Below are positions 8,766 through 51,659 of a stretch of 64,000 bases of DNA, piece after piece. Location of the stretch: the NCBI RefSeq assembly GCF_037893015.1, contig NC_133659.1, forward strand, positions 11,777,885-11,841,884, in the 5' to 3' direction. The notes under the pieces are model-generated. The model saw only the letters and a program-made list of their open reading frames with translations, was not told where the DNA came from and ran no database searches. Both the position numbers and the translations under genes were made by a program. The number at the start of each line of letters is the position of its first letter. Position 1 is the first letter of the stretch. This DNA is from Macrotis lagotis (taxonomy: Eukaryota > Chordata > Mammalia > Peramelemorphia > Peramelidae).

Positions 8766-8799
8766 TATGCTACCTTCAAAGCCCCTCCATAATTTAGCA

Positions 8800-9878
8800 A
8801 ATGGTATTTGAGGATTTTGGCCCCTGAATTTCAACCCTTACTAGCAGAAGCATAATATTCTAATAGAAATGCAGCAGACCAAGTAGTCCCGTGGTTTTTA
8901 AACAGAATTATAACTTCTAGGAATATAATCCATTCTAATTTAGCAGGCACCCTATAATGTCTAGTATATATTAGGAGCTAGGGGTATAAAATGTAAAACA
9001 ACACATTTGACATATGAATCCCTGATTTTGAAGACAGTCTAATGACTGTAATTTGTGAGAAATCTAATTGTATACAAAAAAAAGAGTCTTAGAAAGTAGA
9101 CTTTTCCAAGGTAGAGGAAAAAGATGAAAATAATGATAAAAACAACAATGGGAATAATAATAGCAGTGGCAGTGTGGAGTCATGAATACTAATGTAGTGG
9201 TGCTCTAACCACTGAACCACCTAGCTGCTTGTAATGCATTGCAGTGTCCTATCCTGCTTTTCACTTCTGAGCTCATTCCATTATCCAGTCACAAAATTGG
9301 TCCAAAAAAGAAGTACTGCTTGATAAGATCGAGGTCTTTCCCACAGAGTGCCTTTCTATTACTCCCTTTGGGAGGAATATAAGGAAATCCCAACCTGGGG
9401 TGACATGTTGGATTTTAATGAGCCAAAGAATATAAGAAAAGACAGACTAAAACTTTCCCAGAGGGCTAAGGCCTCCTCTTCGTAGAACTGAATCCAGTCT
9501 GACCAAGTGCTTTGGTCCAGAGTTGAGGGGCCCTCAAAGTGAGGGAGAAGGTCCAGTGCCCCCAGTCATGCAGGCTCAGCCTTGGTCTTTCAGGTTTGGA
9601 CACAGAGACCTCATCTGGTCTTTGAGGGACTAAGTCCAATTAAGCTCCTGTGTCAATTCCTTTCTGGGAGCCCCTAACTTGTGTATCAAAGACTCAACTG
9701 ACTTCATTTTCTGTCCTTTAGAATCAAACCTGTTGAGTGAGTTTAGTTCAGTCAATATTTTGTCAAGGATCCATTAGGAAAGTTTTAGGTGCTCAAATAG
9801 ACAAGGATTCAGAGGAAACTTTTTTTCCTGGATTTTCAATGGAATCACAATATATCTAAGGAGATACTAGAAGAAACT

Positions 9879-9880
<2 letters not shown>
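8800..9880. other. Intergenic, upstream of INSL5, nothing further seen
   Basis: Unique sequence with one short reverse SINE tail at about 9190-9230 ('ctaaccactgaaccacctag'). No coding exon was recognised. Confidence 0.4.

Positions 9881-9883
<3 letters not shown>

Positions 9884-9962
<79 letters not shown>
9884..9962. repeat. (GT)n-(GA)n compound microsatellite
   Basis: About 44 bases of GT units followed by about 32 bases of GA units, about 0.6 kb upstream of the INSL5 TATA box. Confidence 0.95.
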
Positions 9963-9967
<5 letters not shown>

Positions 9968-10488
9968 AGAGATGTTTTACAGAAATTCAATTGATTGACC
10001 CTCACTAGAAGAATTTTGATCTAGCCAGGAAAGCATACTTTCTCAGTTTATAATTTCCTATTGATATCAGGTATTTAATCCCTTGAGAGCTGAGCCCCTT
10101 GCCTCTGAGGGCACATTTGGTTCTACAGTATCATATTCTGAAAGGGAAAGCTTGATTTTTCCTCTTTCCCTCTATTCTTCATGTTGTTGGTTGAATTTTA
10201 GGCTTTCTTTTTTTCTTCCATTTACTTCAGTTGGGACAAGCCCTTTTCAGGTACCAAGTGGGCAGAATAACCTCTGATAAATTGTGTAAAATGTCCTTTG
10301 TTTAATTTACATCACTTTATAGTTGTGATCTTCAGACCCACCAGCTGTGGTAGGTCGAGATCTTCCCTGGAGACCTTAATGGGAAGTAGTTGGCACTAAA
10401 GAAAGAATGACATGCCTAAGCCTAGAGTCATAAAACCCATTAGCCAACCCAGTGTGTGCTCAATAAACATTTAATGGTGAGCCTTCAT

Positions 10489-10518
10489 CCAATAGCAGGA
10501 TGGGTCCTTCTGTATAAA
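10489..10518 (+). promoter_or_regulatory. INSL5: INSL5 core promoter (CCAAT and TATA box)
   Basis: TATAAA at 10513-10518 lies 88 bases before the INSL5 start codon, and CCAAT lies at 10489-10493. Normal TATA-to-start distance puts transcription start near 10540-10550 and gives a 5' leader of about 60 bases with no upstream ATG in view. This fits a tightly regulated, cell-type-restricted hormone gene. Confidence 0.65.
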
Positions 10519-10605
10519 TCAGCCTTGAGGTCCAGGATCCCCTCAAACTCTGTTTTTACTGCCTCTCCAGTTCCCCCTTTGGGTTCTCATCCACTCATCC
10601 GCACC

Positions 10606-10777
10606 ATGAAAGGCTTCATCTGGGCTTTCTTCTTATTGTCAGCCCTAGTGGCCATCTCTGGGGTGAGAGGCAAGGAGGTGTTGAAGGTCTGTGGTCGAGA
10701 TTTCATTAGGGCGATTGTCTACACCTGTGGTGGCTCTCGTTGGAAGAGGGACCTGCAGGGGGCCTTTGAAGACAGAG
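10606..10777 (+). CDS. INSL5: INSL5 exon 1: signal peptide, B chain, start of C-peptide
   Basis: Encodes residues 1-57. Residues 1-22 (MKGFIWAFFLLSALVAISGV, then RG) are a signal peptide very like human INSL5 (MKG...AIS.VR). The B chain follows with Cys29 and Cys41. The relaxin-family receptor motif is RxxxRxxV (R31, R35, V38), and the chain ends in GGSRW before a KR cleavage site. The exon ends in phase 1 at 'GACAGAG|gtaaga', in the C-peptide, which is the conserved relaxin/insulin-family intron position. ATG 10606 is chosen because it directly opens the signal peptide; an upstream in-frame ATG at 10456 lies before the TATA box. INSL5 is a secreted two-chain hormone of colonic L-cells acting on RXFP4. 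The GGSRW end recalls relaxin-3, but the signal peptide and gene neighbours point to INSL5. Confidence 0.92.
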
Positions 10778-12356
10778 GTAAGAGAAGGTTGTTTGCTGTT
10801 GTTTAGATGGGCACAGAAAACTGGGCAATAGTAAAGTACACTTAGAAACTTCTCAAGTAGGGTCTTGGGAGGTTTGGTTGAAGGAAGTGGACATGTATAA
10901 CCTGCACAAATGAGACCTGGAAAGGACATGGCAGTCTGAAGGATTAGACAGAATCTGGTGCACTGAGTAGAGGTTCCAAAGTGTTGCCTCTCAAGGAGAG
11001 CTGCCCCCAAGTTGGGCTACCTAGAGATGTGGTTGATATGTCTTCAGGTCTGAATGCTCTCTTGGGGTATGTTCCTTTTGTATGAGGATTGGACTTGAAG
11101 TCTCCTCACTTCCTTCCTCATTTAACATGGAGGAATTGGCCATGTTCAGCTCAAGCCCCAGAGGACAGGAGGGGCATAATGGGATGGAAGACACAAAAGC
11201 AAGTCAAGACTTGGTGTTAGGAGAACTTCCTGCAAATCAAAGCTGTCTCAATTATAATAGATAAATTTGGTTCCTTTCTCAATGGAGGTCAAGACTAGAA
11301 TTTGAATGACCCTGGGAAAGTCCCTAATATCCTCCAGTCTCTTCATGTGTAGAGCAGAAATGAGAGTGGTGCTCACCAGAGCTGCCTCAGGGTTGTGATG
11401 AGGATCAGGCAACAGACATTTATTAAGTGTTACTAAGCATTATAAACTAAGTGCTGGGGGTTCAAAAGAAAGGCAAGAGACAGTTCCTGCCCTCACAATT
11501 CAAAAGGGGATGACAAGGAAAAGATTGTGCCCATAAACAAGGTCTATCCAGGGTGGGTGGAGGGTGTTCTGCAGGAGGAAGGGTTGAGCTGAGCCTACAA
11601 AGAAGAGCTGGCATCTTGGCAGCTTTACAAGTTGGATTCCACTCACATCCCTGGGAGGAAGATATGTTGTTATCCCCATTTCACAGGTGAGGAAACTGAC
11701 TCTCCAGTGAAGTTAAAGTTCAGTGACTTGCCTGACTAACACAGCTAGCAAGTATCCAAGCTAGGATTTGAACTCAACTCTTCCTCACTCCAGGTCCAAC
11801 ACTCTATTCTACACTACCTAATTTATTTTTAAAATTGTTATTTTAAAAATTTTGTTATTTTTTCATTTTAGAGATTCAAATTTCAATAAATAATTTCTAC
11901 ATTTCAACCCACTTTTCTGGGATGGACTGGTATGGTTTCTCACTTTTTATTTTATGTTTTTGTCACATAATAAATACTTCTATGAATGGCGGTGAAAATG
12001 AGGCCCAGAGCTCCAGTTCAAAGCTCTGGGTGGAACCGTAAGTGTGTGCCCTCCATCTCTCTCTCTGTGTACAGGAAGAGAACTTGACGAGCTGGTCTCT
12101 TAGTGCACTAAGGGGACTTGAGTTAAGGAATGGGCCCTGGATTCCATTCCTGCTTTAAATCTATGCTCAGGTGGTTTTCTCTTTTTTATCTTCTGAACTA
12201 TTTCTGCATTCTAACCAGACGCACACAACAAAGGCCAATCCAGTGATGGTTGTTAACTTCTCACTTTCTTAACATAAAAATGTCTATGATTTGCCTTGGC
12301 TCCACCTTCTTCTAACATAGTCATATGTCTGTTTTTTCTTTTTTACTTTCCCACAG
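10778..12356 (+). other. INSL5: INSL5 intron (1,579 bp)
   Basis: Phase-1 intron with donor 'gtaaga' and acceptor 'tttactttcccacag'. It holds a Ther-2/MIR-like fragment at about 11405-11530 ('acatttattaagtgttacta') and a reverse CORE-SINE at about 11610-11815. Its last ~250 bases, from about 12105, are also present before the duplicate exon at 15507. Confidence 0.85.
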
Positions 12357-12577
12357 TGGAAGGGAAAAAGTACTTTGAGGTGCCTGACAAAAATGGAGTT
12401 TCTGACGACCTCATGGATGACGGCCTCTATGTCCATTCCCCTGATGATGAAATCCTCTTGCAGAAGCACCAGCCAGTGGGCACCAGGCAACTCAAGAGGC
12501 AGGCTGAGGCAGCTGATCTGGCTGTTTTCTGTTGCCAGACTGGCTGTACTGTTTCACAACTGAGCAAGCTGTGCTAG
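12357..12577 (+). CDS. INSL5: INSL5 exon 2: C-peptide and A chain
   Basis: Joined to exon 1 in phase 1, this completes a 130-residue prohormone (human about 135). It encodes the rest of an acidic C-peptide, a furin-type site RQLKR (residues 101-105) and then an A chain starting with Gln (possible pyroglutamate, as in human). The A-chain cysteines follow CC-x3-C-x8-C: 'CCQTGCTVSQLSKLC' and stop. This pattern supplies the intra-A bond and the two B-A bonds of the relaxin fold. Cleavage after KR at both C-peptide ends fits proprotein-convertase processing. AATAAA lies 102 bases after the stop. All six cysteines are present and the frame is intact, so the gene looks functional. Confidence 0.93.
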
Positions 12578-12678
12578 GGCAAGACCCAGTTGGATGGGCA
12601 GCCAGAGGTTGGCCATGAGAGGCTCTTGTCTGCCTTTTCCAACACCCTGATTCTTGTAAAAATGGAGGCTTTCAAACA

Positions 12679-12684
12679 AATAAA
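12679..12684 (+). terminator. INSL5: INSL5 poly(A) signal AATAAA
   Basis: Canonical AATAAA about 100 bases after the INSL5 stop codon, giving a short 3' UTR. A matching AATAAA sits at the same relative place behind the duplicate exon. Confidence 0.75.
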
Positions 12685-12792
12685 GAAATCAGCAAACTAG
12701 TCAATGGCTTTTTCCATGTATGACTTTTCAGAAAATGGAAAATTGGGGGTTAAAATTCAGATCTAGTTTATCCTTTTCTTTACAGTTATATG

Positions 12793-12793
<1 letters not shown>

Positions 12794-12833
<40 letters not shown>

Positions 12834-12836
12834 TGT
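12794..12836. repeat. (GT)n microsatellite behind INSL5
   Basis: About 43 bases of GT units, interrupted once by TATG. It has a counterpart at the same place in the duplicate block. Confidence 0.95.
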
Positions 12837-14329
12837 TTGAAACCAGCACTGTCCAGTTTGTAGCTAACATGTACTTTATAAACATGGAATTTAAAAATAG
12901 TGAGTTTTTGCATATTCCAGTGATCTGAAAGCTTATGTGTGGTTACTTGTGGAACAGGAGGTATGATTAGTAATAATCTCTGTGGTACAAAGAAAAGGCC
13001 ATTGGTCTACCAGATTATTTGAAGAGCTGGGTTTAAATCTCATCTCTGATACTGCAAGTTATGCAAGCTCTTGGGTTATTTTCCAGACTTCATGATTAAA
13101 ACCCATGTAGCAAAGGGGTGACTCCCAGTTCTGGGATATAGGAAGTCCGCTACTCTGTGTAGGGGTGGGGGTATGCAGGGAGATCTCCTTAGATTTACTG
13201 CATTTTTTCTTTTGGCCTCTTTGTGGAGCCAGAAATCTGCCTTATCTCACCAACCCAGTCTTTCCTCATCACCTTTTCCAGTCACTGCCATCAGCCATGG
13301 CTAAGCTAGGGACAATATTAGGGTATTTATGAAAAAGTCTAAATGTGGTGACTCTTCAAAGTTTGCAAGGTTTTCCTCTGATCTAGCCAGTGTGATGGTG
13401 AGGGAGGAGATCCAGGGCTGAGACTACCTTCCTCCCTCTATACTCCCTATCTCCCTTCTCACCCCATTCCTACTCAGGGATAACACCCAAAAGCTTCCAC
13501 CATGCAATTCTTGCATCCTTGAATCCTAATACCCAACAAGTTTAATATTTTACCTATGACTCATTGAGGGGGTCAACTTCTCTCAACCAATATAAACACT
13601 GTGCAAATGACACTACAGTCCATTCAATCGCTTTCAAAGACATTTGAATTGCTCAAGCACATTTTTACCCTTAGATGTGAGCCTCCGATTGATTGATTCC
13701 ATAAAAAAGCTGTCTCACCCGGTTAAGGCTTCAGTGCACAGCATCTTGACTTTAAGGAAGGCCGATTGACTTGATTGATTGGCTCAATTGAGACTCATCC
13801 TTCTATTTCCTGTTTGTGTAACCTTTGATTAGGTTTTAATTACTTTGAGCCTCAGTTTCTTTAGTTGTAAAAAAAGAAATGACTTCCAAGGTCTTCTTAA
13901 TATCTATGATTTTAAGTTTTTGTGATTTATATTTGTGTACTATCCAGAGGGCAATCAGGGGCACATTGACCTGAAAAGAGTTGGGTATCCATGATGGATG
14001 GGTTACCCTTCCAGGATGGCTAGTATTTGAACCTCTACTTCCTATAGAATACCTCCTCTGGCTTACAGACAAGATGGGGGTAGTTGTATCAGATGGTAGG
14101 TGGTTTTGCTCCTTATACTGGCTACTTATAAACTTCCTTACTATACAGACAAGAAGGGGAGAGGATAGTCAGGGGGCACCAGAACAAGATACCATTTTAT
14201 CATACTTAGGCATTCCTATCTGGGTTGATTGTAAGGAGATTTTTTCTGACATCAACCATAATTTTGTATCCTTAGAAATTCTGCTCATTGTTTCTAGTTC
14301 TTCCCTCTGGTTCAAAGAAAAAGGTTAAC

Positions 14330-14430
14330 AATCCTTTTTTCCACCTTTGGGGTGTCTCTTCTTTAGGTTAAACAGCTCCAGTTCTTTCAAGTGATCCTCA
14401 CCTGATCTAGGCTCATGGCTCTTCACCATC
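14330..14430 (-). mobile_element. CR1/L3 LINE 3' fragment, reverse
   Basis: 'tctcttctttaggttaaac', 'agctccagttctttcaag' and 'gctcttcaccatcttggtc' match the antisense CR1/L3 3' region also seen at 31355 and 55970. Confidence 0.6.
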
Positions 14431-14434
14431 TTGG

Positions 14435-14575
14435 TCCTGATTTGTATCTGGTTACTGGAACCAGATGGTTCAGGAGGAGAAATGGCCCTCCCTCACTTAA
14501 ATCTAATTTATTGGATGTCTTCCTTCTTGATGTCACAGTCCTCTTTGAGAATGAAGGACAACAATAGTACCCTGC
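14435..14575 (+). mobile_element. RTE-tailed SINE
   Basis: Ends 'cctctttgagaatgaaggac' followed by 'aacaatag', like the copies at 35170 and 35840. Confidence 0.6.
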
Positions 14576-14689
14576 TTGGGGGGCACTCTACAGTTACTGT
14601 CTAGCTTATCCATGCTTTTCCTAATATGCTACTCAAAACCAAACATATTTCACATGTGCTCTGGGCAAGGACAAAGTCACTCAGTCAAT

Positions 14690-14790
14690 AAGTTGGTAAA
14701 TATTTATTAAGCATCTACTATGTTCCAGAAACTTCTCTAAGAGCTGGGAATACAAAAAAAGACAATAGACAGTCCCTGGAAGAAGAATAA
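14690..14790 (+). mobile_element. Ther-2/MIR-like repeat fragment
   Basis: 'tatttattaagcatctacta' followed by 'gagctgggaatacaaa' and 'acagtccctgg' is a common marsupial dispersed repeat, also at 11405, 28110 and 51050. Confidence 0.55.
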
Positions 14791-15506
14791 AGAATATTCC
14801 AGACTGGAGGAATAACTCATGCAAATATGTAAGCAGGGAAATGATCCTGCCATGTTGGAAGGCTACCAAGGAGTAATGTGACCTCACTGCATTGGATGAA
14901 GAGGAACTCAGCTGATGGAAGTATGGATGGAATATTTTCAACTAATTTTTTTCTTTTCCCATGTTATGAAGTTAATTTAAGATTCTTCAAATAAAATATC
15001 TAAGTCTGTCATAAATGGCACCACATTGTTTTCAGAATTGAGTTTCATAGAAAAAATATTTGGAATGAGAAGATTCTTTAGAAATAATTTAGTCAGATGC
15101 CCTCATCTGACCTAAATTTTTAAAGTATAAATCAAATGAATAAACACTGAAGCTCTGTTACTTTCTGAATAACCTTGGACAATTCAGTGGCTATCTTTGG
15201 ACTGAAACTTCATCTGTAAAGTGAGATACTTGGATTAGATGATCTCTAAGGACTCTCTGCTGTCAACAAAATGAGGAGATTTAACTTAGGGAATAGTCCC
15301 CAAGTTCATTCTAAGCTTTAAATCTATGCTTCTATAATCTTTACATTTTTATCCTCTGAACTCTGAGTTCCCACTGGATAATCAAGAAAGACCCAGGGAA
15401 GACCAATACAACTATGTTTGTTAATTTTTCACTTTCCATATGTAACTATATCTAAGGTTTGCCAATGGGTTTCTAATATTGCCATGTTTTAAAAACTTTA
15501 ATTCAG

Positions 15507-15716
15507 CAGAAGGAAACTGGTATTTGGAGGCAAGTAACAAAAATGGAGCATCTGATAATGTCAAGCACCACAACCTCCTCTTTCTCAGTTCTCATCCTTA
15601 TACGGAAGCATAAAGAGGGCACCAATCTACAAAAGAGGCATGAACTGGCTGATGAGTTGGTCATTAATTGCTGCAAGATTGACTGTGGTAATAAAAGAAT
15701 TGAGCAATGGTGTTAG
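15507..15716 (+). pseudogene. INSL5-like duplicate exon 2 (C-peptide and A chain), probably a pseudogene
   Basis: Homologous to INSL5 exon 2. After acceptor-like 'taattcag' the frame homologous to INSL5 reads EGNWYLEASNKNGASDN (INSL5: EGKKYFEVPDKNGVSDD) and meets TAA at 15611. The A-chain part lies in the next frame: LQKR, then 'HELADELVINCCKIDC' and 'GNKRIEQWC', with a stop at 15714-15716. It keeps the KR site, the CC-x3-C-x8-C pattern and a final Cys. Compared with INSL5 the middle is about 11 bases shorter, which explains the frame change. In the A-chain frame the whole exon is open, but the acceptor phase would be 0 instead of 1. No signal or B-chain exon was found nearby. Best read as a decayed tandem copy; an exotic functional use of the A-chain exon is not excluded. 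Confidence 0.75.
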
Positions 15717-15885
15717 GGCAAGAAGATCCAAAATGGGTGAGCAGCTTGCCCCCTCCAATAGCTTGATTCTTGTAAAAAAGATGGCTTTTCAATCAGTAAA
15801 TAAATCAATGACTTTCTCACACATGAGATCTTTCAGAAAACAGAGAATTAGAGATTAAAATTAATATCTGGCCTATTCTGTCCTT

Positions 15886-15888
<3 letters not shown>

Positions 15889-15926
<38 letters not shown>
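15889..15926. repeat. (GT)n microsatellite behind the duplicate exon
   Basis: Positional counterpart of the GT run behind INSL5. Confidence 0.95.
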
Positions 15927-15928
<2 letters not shown>

Positions 15929-16269
15929 TTAGGTATGTCTAAGGACATGAGTGCATTTGGAGCCATCACCATACAGTATGCAACTAACATAGACTTCATA
16001 AATATGGAATTTTAAAAACTTGATTTTTAGCTCCTTTAATAATCTGAAACATTGTGAGTAAGGATACTCTCTCCATAACTGAGCAGATGGTCTTTAAGAA
16101 TTTCTCCTCCTGAAAGAGAAATGTAGAACAACACTTGTGATGTATGTCTCTGACTTGAAGAACCACAAAGTCTAATGCTTGTGAGTTAGAATAACCCACA
16201 AAAAGAATAAAAGAAAATAGGATATTCTAAGAGTAAGGAGAAAACTAATAATAATAATAGCAATGATAA

Positions 16270-16610
16270 GAAAAAAGTACAGTGGAAGTGTGGAATAGTG
16301 AATGTGACTCTGGTCTTGCAACCAAGAAATTCTGGGTTCAAGTCCTATCGTCAGCACATGCTGGTTATGTGGTGAAAATGATGATAGTGATAAGAATAGT
16401 TATCACTTATATAATGTTTTAGAGTTTATAGGTTTTACAAATAGTAGCTCTTTTTATTCTCATGACAGACTTCATCTCATAGATGAAGAAACTGAAGCAG
16501 GGAGAGGTGACCTGTCCTGACTCACATAGTAATTCTTTGAGGTTGGATTTGAATTCAGAGCTCCTTAACTCCAAGCTCAGGGATCTATCCAGTGAGCAAC
16601 CTCAATGTCA
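16270..16610. mobile_element. Two SINE fragments, MIR/Ther-like, opposite orientations
   Basis: 16270-16375 reads forward ('tctgggttcaagtcctat'). 16378-16610 reads in reverse ('gaagaaactgaagcaggga', 'gatttgaattcagagctcc'). Confidence 0.55.
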
Positions 16611-16920: not shown

Positions 16921-17025
16921 AATGAAGAGTCTTTGTTAGTGAGAATTCTGAAAAGTATGAAGAATCTTTGTTAGTGAGAATTCTGAAAAGTATGAAGAAT
17001 CTTTGTTAGTGAGAATTCTGAAAAA
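16921..17025. repeat. 35-bp unit, three tandem copies
   Basis: Units at 16921-16955, 16956-16990 and 16991-17025 share 'ctttgttagtgagaattctg'. Copies 2 and 3 differ only at the last base, and copy 1 at two positions. Confidence 0.95.
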
Positions 17026-17039
17026 TATTTTGTAATGCA

Positions 17040-37299: not shown

Positions 37300-38500
37300 C
37301 GACAGCCTCCACTGAGGCATGGTGAGGGCAGCGCAGAGCTCTGGGCATGAAGGGTTCCGAGTTGGGGGGTTCGATCTAAGGACCCCAGGGCCATAGATGC
37401 CGCTCTCCTTCTCAGCCGGGTCCCCCACGTTGCTTCCTTTTGCATACGCTGGGTCCCCCGCCTCCCGTCGGATGCCCCCTCAGCACCCCGCTCCCCCAGC
37501 TTGCTCAGGGAACCCAGGTTCACTTACACTCATGCAGAGGGGCTGGGCAAGACCAGGGCCCTGAGAAAGGGCGATCGCTGCATCCCGTTCAGCGCATGGG
37601 TGCCAAGGCACCCCCAGGGCAGGGGTGCAGGGTTCTGCGGCCGGCAGGGGTGGGTGGGCGCTGCAGGCTCCCCAGCTCCTCCCGAGCGCCCAGGCCTGGT
37701 CGCTGTCCAGCGTCTCCAAGGCTACCCGGCCAAACAAGAGCGGACCCCGCCCCCGACCCCGCCCGCTGCAGCAGGGGGCCCTGCCCCCTCCCCACCCCCC
37801 GGATCCCGAGGCCACAGCCCAGGAGCAGGCCTGGCCCGCACCCTTAGTCTAGGGAGACCCCGGGGGCCACCCCGGGCCGCCAGCTCTTCAGGGATTTGGA
37901 ATCGGAGGGTCTGGATTTCAGTTCCACCTCCATCCGGGGACCTTGGGCAGGGGTCTCCTATGGGAGTCGGCAAACACCTGCACAGACTGTGCACACCCAG
38001 GGTCTAGGCAGGGTGAACTGGGGGGGGGGGGGGTCCTAGAGAGACAGGCAGGACGCGGGGCTTTAGCTGAGGCTCAGAGGGAGCCAGGAAAGCCAGGAGG
38101 CGCCCGTGAGGAGCCTTGGGGGAAATGCTAAGGTGCTGGGAAATGGGGAGTTCAAAGAGCCCCCAAGGAAGCCACTGGGAGGGATAAGACTGAAAAAATG
38201 CGAAGCAGCCAGGAGGGAAAAAGCCTTAAACAGCAGCCGGAGCATTGATATCCGATCTGCTGAGCCACCGGCAGGGATTGGACACGAGGGTGACGGGGCA
38301 GCATCGTTTAGGATTGCTCTGACGGCTGGGAGAGGAGAATGGACCGGCCCGGGCAGGGATCTGAGCCGGGGAAACCCATCAGCAGTTGTTGCAGTAGTCC
38401 GCGGGCAAGTCATAAGGTCAGGCAGCAAGGCGGTGGCAGAGAGCAGAGGCCTTTCTGGAGAAATGCCAGGGAGGAGCATCGTCGGGTCTTAGATGCCCAG
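37300..38500. promoter_or_regulatory. DYNLT5: CpG island, likely DYNLT5 promoter and non-coding first exon
   Basis: The only strongly G+C- and CpG-rich stretch in the window, with many GGGCGG-like and CCGCCC-like boxes, set in AT-rich surroundings. DYNLT5 needs a 5' non-coding exon above 30244, and the island lies 7 kb upstream in gene sense with no other gene start nearby. On the minus strand a strong donor 'GAGT|gtaagtg' at 37528/37527 could end that exon. Several 60-168 codon open frames in both strands are the usual by-product of high G+C and are not called genes. A G run lies at about 38021-38034. Confidence 0.6.
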
Positions 38501-39180
38501 TGCAAAAGTCCCTGCGGACGGTGACTGCAGCCCTGAAATGCAAACGCTTGCTCCTTGGAAGGAAAGCTGCGGCCGCCTGGACAGCAGACTAAAGAACAGA
38601 ACCATCACCTTGCCAACAAAGACTCATATAGCAAAGCTCTGGTTTCTCCAGTAGCCATGTATGCCTGTAAGGAAACTCGATGCTCTAGAATTGTGGGGCT
38701 GACGATGACTGCTGAGAATCCCTTGGACAGCAGGGAATGCAATCAGTCCACACTTAAATTCATTGAAGCTACTCAGTGTAAGGCCAAATACTGAAGCTGA
38801 AGCTGAAATTCTTTGGCTACATGATGAGAAGATGGGACTTATTGGAGAAGACTCCAATGTTGGGAAGACTGGTGAAAGGAGAAGGGGATGGCAGAGGAGG
38901 AGATGGAGAGAGTCATGGCAGCAATAAACATGAGTCTGGACAGACTTTGAAATTTTCTTTGCAAGGCAATGACTCGCCCAAGGCCACACAGCTAGGTAAT
39001 TATTGTGTCTGAGGCCAGATTAGAACTCAGCTACTCCTGACTCCAGGGCCGGTGCTCTATCCACTGCACCGCCCCTGGACAGACTTTGAGTGATAGTGGA
39101 GGACAGAAGGATCTGGTGTGCTGTGGTCCTTGGAGTCATGGAGAATAAGACTTGACTGAACAACAACAAAATATAATGAT
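38500..39180 (+). mobile_element. RTE (BovB-like) LINE, C-terminus and 3' end
   Basis: Plus-strand frames give 'DGDC', then the block around 'RLLLGRK', 'DSRECNQSTLKFIEATQCKA', 'MMRRWDLLEK' and a tail ending 'gactgaacaacaacaaa'. This is the RTE pol C-terminus and 3' end, the same family as 990-1860. It is interrupted by a SINE at 38951-39074. Confidence 0.8.
38951..39074 (-). mobile_element. Marsupial SINE nested in RTE LINE
   Basis: Reverse SINE from 'ttttctttgcaaggcaatg' to 'ctgcaccgcccc', slightly shortened, flanked by a perfect 15-base duplication of LINE sequence 'ctggacagactttga' (38936-38950 and 39075-39089). Confidence 0.95.
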
Positions 39181-49064: not shown

Positions 49065-49224
49065 ACTGCATTCCCTGCCTTCCATCTCTGGGAAATGGAG
49101 GTTAATGATAGGAGCTGTGGCTTGCACCTATCTTATTGGTTCCAAAGGAATGGCCAGTGGTTCTAATTTACAGTAATTCAGATTTTTAAAGAACATTTTG
49201 TTCATTGGAGAGGACATTTATTTC
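49065..49224. repeat. 160-bp direct repeat, copy 1, with minus-strand AATAAA
   Basis: Matches 51407-51562: 'ggaaatggaggttaatgata', 'ttacagtaattcagattttt' and 'catttgttcattggagagga'-like end. Read on the minus strand it starts at an AATAAA (49217-49222). Confidence 0.85.
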
Positions 49225-51190: not shown

Positions 51191-51406
51191 AACACATACA
51201 GACTAAATGGAGTGAATCATGGAGCTCGGGAAGTCCTGCCTGGACAGAGAGTTCTTCCACTGGCAGTGACCCTGGAGCGTCAGAACTGGATATTGGCCAA
51301 CTCTGGTCCTGGGGATCCCTGGTTTACCCATCAGATTAAGCGACACCTACAGGATTTCTAATGGAATGAATTCAAGCTCTTCTCATTCTTTTGAACCACC
51401 TGGGGA

Positions 51407-51562
51407 CTGGATTCCCTGTCTTCTGCCTCTTGGAAATGGAGGTTAATGATAGGAGCTGTGGATTGCTCCATCTTATTGACTCCAAAGGAATGGTCAATGT
51501 TTCTAGTTTACAGTAATTCAGATTTTTCAAGAACATTTTGTTCATTGGAGAGGACATTTATT
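51407..51562. repeat. 160-bp direct repeat, copy 2, in the last SGIP1 intron
   Basis: Second copy of 49065-49224, about 2.3 kb away and in the same orientation. By eye roughly nine bases in ten match. Confidence 0.85.
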
Positions 51563-51659
51563 TCTGGGGCTCTCTTGAACTAAGGAAGGGAAACTAGGAA
51601 CCATTCAGGATTTTCAGGGAGATTGCTAAAGTAGCTAGACCCTCTGCCCAAATACTTTG

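Follow-up and report, generated by a model that had tools for sequence, protein, structure and literature searches.

Disrupted INSL5 sequences have been described in rat and dog, whose INSL5 pseudogenes are reported to carry a frameshift or stops and to be likely non-functional, and the same source describes INSL5 as being under constraint (PMC551602). At the RLN locus, local duplications are reported to have given INSL4, INSL6 and RLN1 (PMC3310001). Here we describe a stretch of 64,000 nucleotides (the window) from the greater bilby, Macrotis lagotis, whose published genome measures 3.66 Gbp (PMC11239497), in which the second exon of INSL5 is found twice. With a probability of about 0.88, we read the second copy as a non-coding relic, now dead, that was left by an old local duplication at the DNA level. 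Such a dead fragment is an ordinary piece of genome archaeology, and it preserves a record of a local duplication at INSL5; no duplication of this kind at the INSL5 locus was found in the open-licence literature searched.

The parent gene and the duplicated block

The parent gene and the two copies of the block are as follows.

10606–10777, forward strand: INSL5 exon 1, intact, translated as the signal peptide and B chain KEVLKVCGRDFIRAIVYTCGGSRWKR
12357–12577, forward strand: INSL5 exon 2, intact, with C-peptide, A chain and stop; parent of the copied exon; acceptor score 12.0
12111–12947, forward strand: parent block in the alignment, with the intron end, exon 2, 3′ UTR, GT microsatellite and flank
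15274–16068, forward strand: duplicated block, 61.7% identical with gaps over 864 columns (E 1e-58), with two matches in the assembly

The protein encoded by the exons at 10606–10777 and 12357–12577 is identical in all of its 130 residues to part of the Macrotis lagotis record. Exon 1, which ends in phase 1, is 100% identical to the INSL5 of this species (P0001), the poly(A) signal lies at 12679, and the protein matches Pfam PF00049. The database model (P0001, 174 aa) starts at an in-frame ATG 44 codons 5′ of the usual start, and this extension, 10474–10606, spans a TATAAA at 10513; the upstream start is probably an annotation error. The B chain contains CGRDFIRA in each of the 11 marsupial INSL5 proteins retrieved (the exon at 10606–10777 and P0002–P0011), and in all 11 Arg replaces Leu B9, one of the residues reported as keeping INSL5 inactive at RXFP3 (PMC4939597). 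Bilby and opossum INSL5 also have GGSRW, as in relaxin-3.

A sequence-only reading of this DNA had proposed that a block around exon 2 is repeated downstream, together with the intron end, the 3′ UTR and the GT tract. The repeat is confirmed by the alignment of 12111–12947 with 15274–16068 (E 1e-58), which contains all of these parts. The 837-bp parent segment has its copy 3.1 kb downstream, at an offset of 3163 bp at the start of the block and 3121 bp at its end, and identity without gaps is 72.1% (754 columns), or 70.7% (710 columns) once the GT tract is removed. The two blocks align beyond chance, as that reading had required of a duplication: the part before the GT tract scores 415, and 300 Markov-resampled controls reached at most 120. 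When the 3,655,600,598-base assembly was searched with the copy as query, very common words being skipped, two matches were returned, the copy and its parent.

The alignment takes in 246 bp at the 3′ end of the INSL5 intron and reaches about 100 bp past the GT tract, and this homology in intron and 3′ flank points to duplication at the DNA level and not to a retrocopy. Homology to the parent gene that includes intron and flank places the copy among unprocessed pseudogenes. A processed pseudogene was rejected, the INSL5 intron end being present in the copy and not removed, and a separate old relaxin paralogue was rejected as the source on the basis of the copy–parent alignment.

A second copied piece and the age of the duplication

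The description of the block as a tandem duplicate is probably too simple, as the copy adjoins a piece whose counterpart lies upstream of INSL5.

8785–9187, forward strand: X, the upstream counterpart of X′
16071–16303, forward strand: X′, a copy of sequence upstream of INSL5, right after the duplicated block

X lies 1.4–1.8 kb upstream of INSL5, and X′ begins 2 bp past the end of the exon-2 copy. The first part of X′, 16071–16114, matches 8785–8828 at 77% (E about 1e-4), and 16119–16303 matches 8989–9187 at 66.5% (E 5e-15 as its own query, 2e-12 in the whole-window comparison); the X/X′ score is 48, against a null maximum of 26 in 1000 controls. That X′ is joined behind the INSL5 copy is a new observation here. 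Used as assembly queries, X and X′ each return themselves alone and neither retrieves the other, so that an old low-copy repeat would escape such a search, and X may stem from a separate event. A control pair of similar divergence, 1647–1856 and 38475–38677, is an interspersed repeat with 1484 candidates, of which 40 of the 40 scored were matching; this family has relatives at about 80%.

The permuted order, with the exon-2 copy followed by X′, suggests one complex local duplication. Homology between the two exon-2 blocks did not extend significantly past 12947 into X (the score was reached by 111 of 1000 controls), no convincing trace of the remainder of the duplicated unit was found in 12948–15273 or after 16303, and X gave just two hits, of 32–36 bases at E 0.065, in the 7.9 kb that precede the window. 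Gene fragments joined in permuted order near their source can be produced by template switching or through circular intermediates. The order found here could have arisen in one complex event by template switching or, alternatively, by re-insertion of a circle in which 12947 had been joined to 8785; it might also mark a junction in a tandem array that once existed and has otherwise been lost.

The duplication is old. Non-coding divergence between the copy and its parent is 0.34 (K2P), and there are six exon-2 columns at which bilby INSL5 differs from all 10 of the other marsupial INSL5 proteins retrieved; the copy has the bilby-specific state in 0/6 of these, and in 5/6 it agrees with one or more of the other marsupials. 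Taken together, the divergence and the lack of bilby-specific residues indicate that the duplication predates those changes on the bilby lineage, and the earlier suggestion of a young lineage has to be given up. An exon-2 protein tree of 12 rows did not place the copy (7/9 inner branches open, copy branch very long), and a search of the literature for a marsupial neutral rate gave no usable value; the age is stated here in relative terms.

Elsewhere in the window, a direct repeat of 160 bp at 90% joins 49065–49224 and 51406–51564, with no further copies in the window, and a unit of roughly 35 bp that begins AGAATCTTTGTTAGTGAGAATTCTG can be recognized by eye, in about three tandem copies, at 16925–17030. 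Overlapping open frames, several of them rich in Pro, Arg and Gly, cluster on both strands at 37440–38490, which is perhaps a CpG-rich promoter region.

State of the copied exon

The copied exon and its candidate signals are the following, with acceptor scores computed from generic weights.

15482–15506, forward strand: decayed homologous acceptor, pyrimidine fraction 0.59 versus 0.91 and score −0.2 versus 12.0 in INSL5
15507–15716, forward strand: pseudo-exon 2, with an 11-nt deletion that disrupts the homologous frame; A-chain frame of 69 codons, ending LQKR-HELADELVINCCKIDCGNKRIEQWC-stop
15565–15588, forward strand: strong cryptic site resembling an acceptor (score 10.1); the exon would start at 15589, in phase with INSL5 exon 1
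15799–15804, forward strand: AATAAA, about where INSL5 has its poly(A) signal

In the homologous frame, the copy runs for 34 codons and then stops, because 11 nucleotides are deleted in the C-peptide, which is where the sequence-only reading had placed the break. That reading was also right that the A-chain frame is open over all 69 codons of the copied exon (15507–15716); the frame is open from 15477, and its residues upstream of the deletion are accidental since this phase-0 stretch is non-homologous. Of the features it had listed, the dibasic LQKR (QLKR in INSL5 itself), the CC-x3-C-x8-C cysteine pattern, the stop (TAG) and the AATAAA are all there, and an extra final cysteine is not: the A chain has four cysteines in all, the last of which closes the pattern. 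Between Cys3 and Cys4, the best alignment with INSL5 requires one inserted and one deleted base, so that this half of the A chain has been rewritten at unchanged length. The Gly before Cys3, common to 11/11 marsupial INSL5 proteins retrieved, is Asp in the copy, and a further AATAAA, at 15690, lies within the A-chain codons.

The acceptor AG is still present and the pyrimidine tract is lost. No continuous frame through B chain, C-peptide and A chain is available via the homologous splice, and the disabling lesions of the copy are thus the frameshift, the decay of the acceptor and an exon 1 not found near by. Two stretches of the A-chain frame gave no match to Pfam PF00049 at E up to 5, a lone A chain being a weak query, and there was no Rfam match at the gathering threshold.

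The claim that the copy has no B-chain partner held in the window, where blastn, tblastn and masked local alignment against a rest-of-window background found no B-chain exon for it. By tblastn, the copied exon 2 is detected at E 2.6e-4, and the genuine INSL5 exon 1 is the only exon 1 below E 1. The top exon-1 score elsewhere in the window, 53.3 (minus strand, near 13.2 kb), barely exceeds the runner-up at 51.7 and was therefore taken as background. Against the assembly, the INSL5 protein gave seven matches from nine candidates, two of them the INSL5 exons and the remaining five read as RLN3, INSL3 and three RLN-type B exons; this search omitted the copy's own exon, so an equally diverged distant exon 1 would be missed too. 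With neither an exon 1 nor an INSL5 promoter found alongside it, the copy is unable, in its present form, to encode an INSL5-type hormone on its own.

As an observation on the wider family, three relaxin-type exons for signal peptide and B chain (L007, L009 and L010) lie within 93 kb on bilby contig C8, at 68.74–68.83 Mb, two of them nearly identical and one diverged. Their sequences suggest a three-gene RLN cluster in the bilby, known from its B-chain exons.

Identity between copy and parent is lower in the exon (65.0%, 206 sites) than in the non-coding flanks (73.0%, 504 sites, without the GT tract), and is 60.0% over the A chain and stop (75 sites). An exon less conserved than its flanks speaks against protection, and the differences are spread evenly over the three codon positions (23/69, 23/68 and 25/68). 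The G+C content of the A chain is 0.51 in INSL5 and 0.39 in the copy, with 14 changes from GC to AT and 5 back, and part of the excess divergence of the exon may be due to this loss. Pairwise dN/dS over 67 codons is 0.52 (bootstrap 0.19–1.04; 13 of 1000 replicates dropped), a value that is not clearly 1, is lowered by the constraint on INSL5 itself and hence does not tell a neutral copy apart from one that was once functional. Synonymous divergence, at 0.96, is far above the non-coding 0.34, and the few sites and the G+C decay are likely to be part of the cause.

Only 6 of the 25 A-chain codons specify the same residue in the copy and INSL5, and four of these are cysteines, which gives 4/4 for cysteines versus 2/21 for other residues (Fisher about 0.001). 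In permutations, cysteines and stop were kept in 0.1% of cases if all differences are placed on the copy branch and in 5.4% if half are. Forward simulations started from bilby INSL5 exon 2, standing in for the ancestor, and the values fitted to the flanks were about 0.15–0.2 per branch, with an indel rate of about 0.03 per site. At a setting near this fit (d 0.17, indels 0.03), the cysteine pattern survived in 3.7% of runs, and the pattern with the whole exon open in 0.4%; over all settings (d 0.17–0.5, indels 0–0.03), survival of the pattern ranged from 0.14% to 14%. Retention of the cysteines is mildly surprising, with a chance of about 0.1–5%, and leaves room for a past functional phase. 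As a whole, the copy is no better preserved than the surrounding non-coding DNA.

Possible histories and comparison with known systems

These results are most consistent with a relic that would be decaying at about the neutral rate, and we lean towards a history in which it was born as a fragment and never functional. A tentative variant within the relic reading, in line with the lost paralogue that the sequence-only reading had suggested, is that the copy was once a complete tandem INSL5-type gene, functional for a time, which later lost exon 1 and its frame; its A chain would have been changing on a fixed cysteine frame while the gene was functional. Such a past would fit the cysteines and stop, kept as the remaining A-chain residues diverged further than the flanks, as well as the retained LQKR and the boundary between exon-2 copy and X′, which resembles the junction of a tandem unit 8785–12947. 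It sits poorly with the failure to find convincing remains of exon 1, or of the other parts of the unit, in 12948–15273, after 16303 or in the 7.9 kb upstream of the window, with the lack of a third-position excess among the differences, and with an A-chain half rewritten by +1/−1 indels. Cysteines kept in frame in other marsupials would mean either a second INSL5 copy in the past or a second A chain that persists today; otherwise the pattern in the bilby copy would be chance.

It is very improbable that the copy still serves as an alternative last exon, with INSL5 exon 1 sometimes spliced to 15589. The predicted product would be a 99-residue prohormone with the signal peptide, the INSL5 B chain, dibasic sites and the A chain of the copy; when exon 1 is joined to the homologous acceptor of the copy, a stop interrupts the frame ahead of the A chain. 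In the stretch scanned, six AG sites are in the phase of the A-chain frame, those in the open stretch being 15535, 15589 and 15616. The score of the predicted site at 15589 is 10.1 (12.0 for the true exon-2 acceptor), the phase of the site gives one open frame, and the copy has its own AATAAA. Sites as strong make up 103 of the 9300 AGs on both strands of the window (0.80 per kb), and about 0.04 such in-phase sites are expected in 15477–15630 (154 bases), a figure to be taken as a hint, having been sought post hoc. However, the site itself was found after a rescue was sought, with generic weights, and INSL5 exon 2 precedes it with a strong acceptor and a poly(A) signal of its own. Furthermore, the AATAAA at 15690 falls within the A-chain codons, the Gly before Cys3 is lost, no clear constraint on the copy is seen beyond the cysteines, and no such isoform or paralogue was among the hits of the protein database searches. 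The searches with the INSL5 protein gave 11/11 hits, and then 11/19, that represent one INSL5 in each of 11 marsupial species, the other eight being from fish; no second INSL5-type protein of any marsupial was among the hits of these shared-word searches, in which no placental INSL5 appeared and which are thus not exhaustive.

If this were true, alternative last exons would combine the same INSL5 B chain with the usual or a changed A chain, and the choice between them could shift receptor selectivity; in INSL5/relaxin-3 chimeras, a difference at RXFP1 is reported as assigned to the A chain (PMC4939597). It is scarcely credible that a separate gene, with its first exon elsewhere, uses the phase-0 frame from 15507: this frame is open across 69 codons and upstream to 15477, but the homologous acceptor is decayed and a database search with the frame of the copy gave no candidate protein. 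Chance similarity or an assembly artefact has a negligible probability, given the E value of 1e-58, the score of 415 before the GT tract against a maximum of 120 in 300 controls, and an ungapped divergence of 28%, far too high for an unmerged haplotype.

The dead relic that we favour shares with INSL5 (insulin-like peptide 5), a member of the relaxin family, the intron end, the exon, the 3′ UTR and the cysteine spacing of the A chain, whereas it differs from that gene in its broken C-peptide frame, its decayed acceptor, the Asp in place of Gly before Cys3 and the B chain that was not found. With fragments left by template switching or circles it has the permuted joining in common, although the mechanism here would have to be read from an old, eroded junction. 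The RLN locus, as reported, offers the same kind of small-scale local duplication in the relaxin family as bilby INSL5, but there it concerns named family members (PMC3310001), and in the bilby one exon only, at the INSL5 locus. Like the rat and dog pseudogenes, the bilby copy is a disrupted INSL5 sequence; in those species, as they are described, the INSL5 gene itself is inactivated (PMC551602), whereas the bilby has an intact INSL5, and what is dead there is an additional, partial copy.
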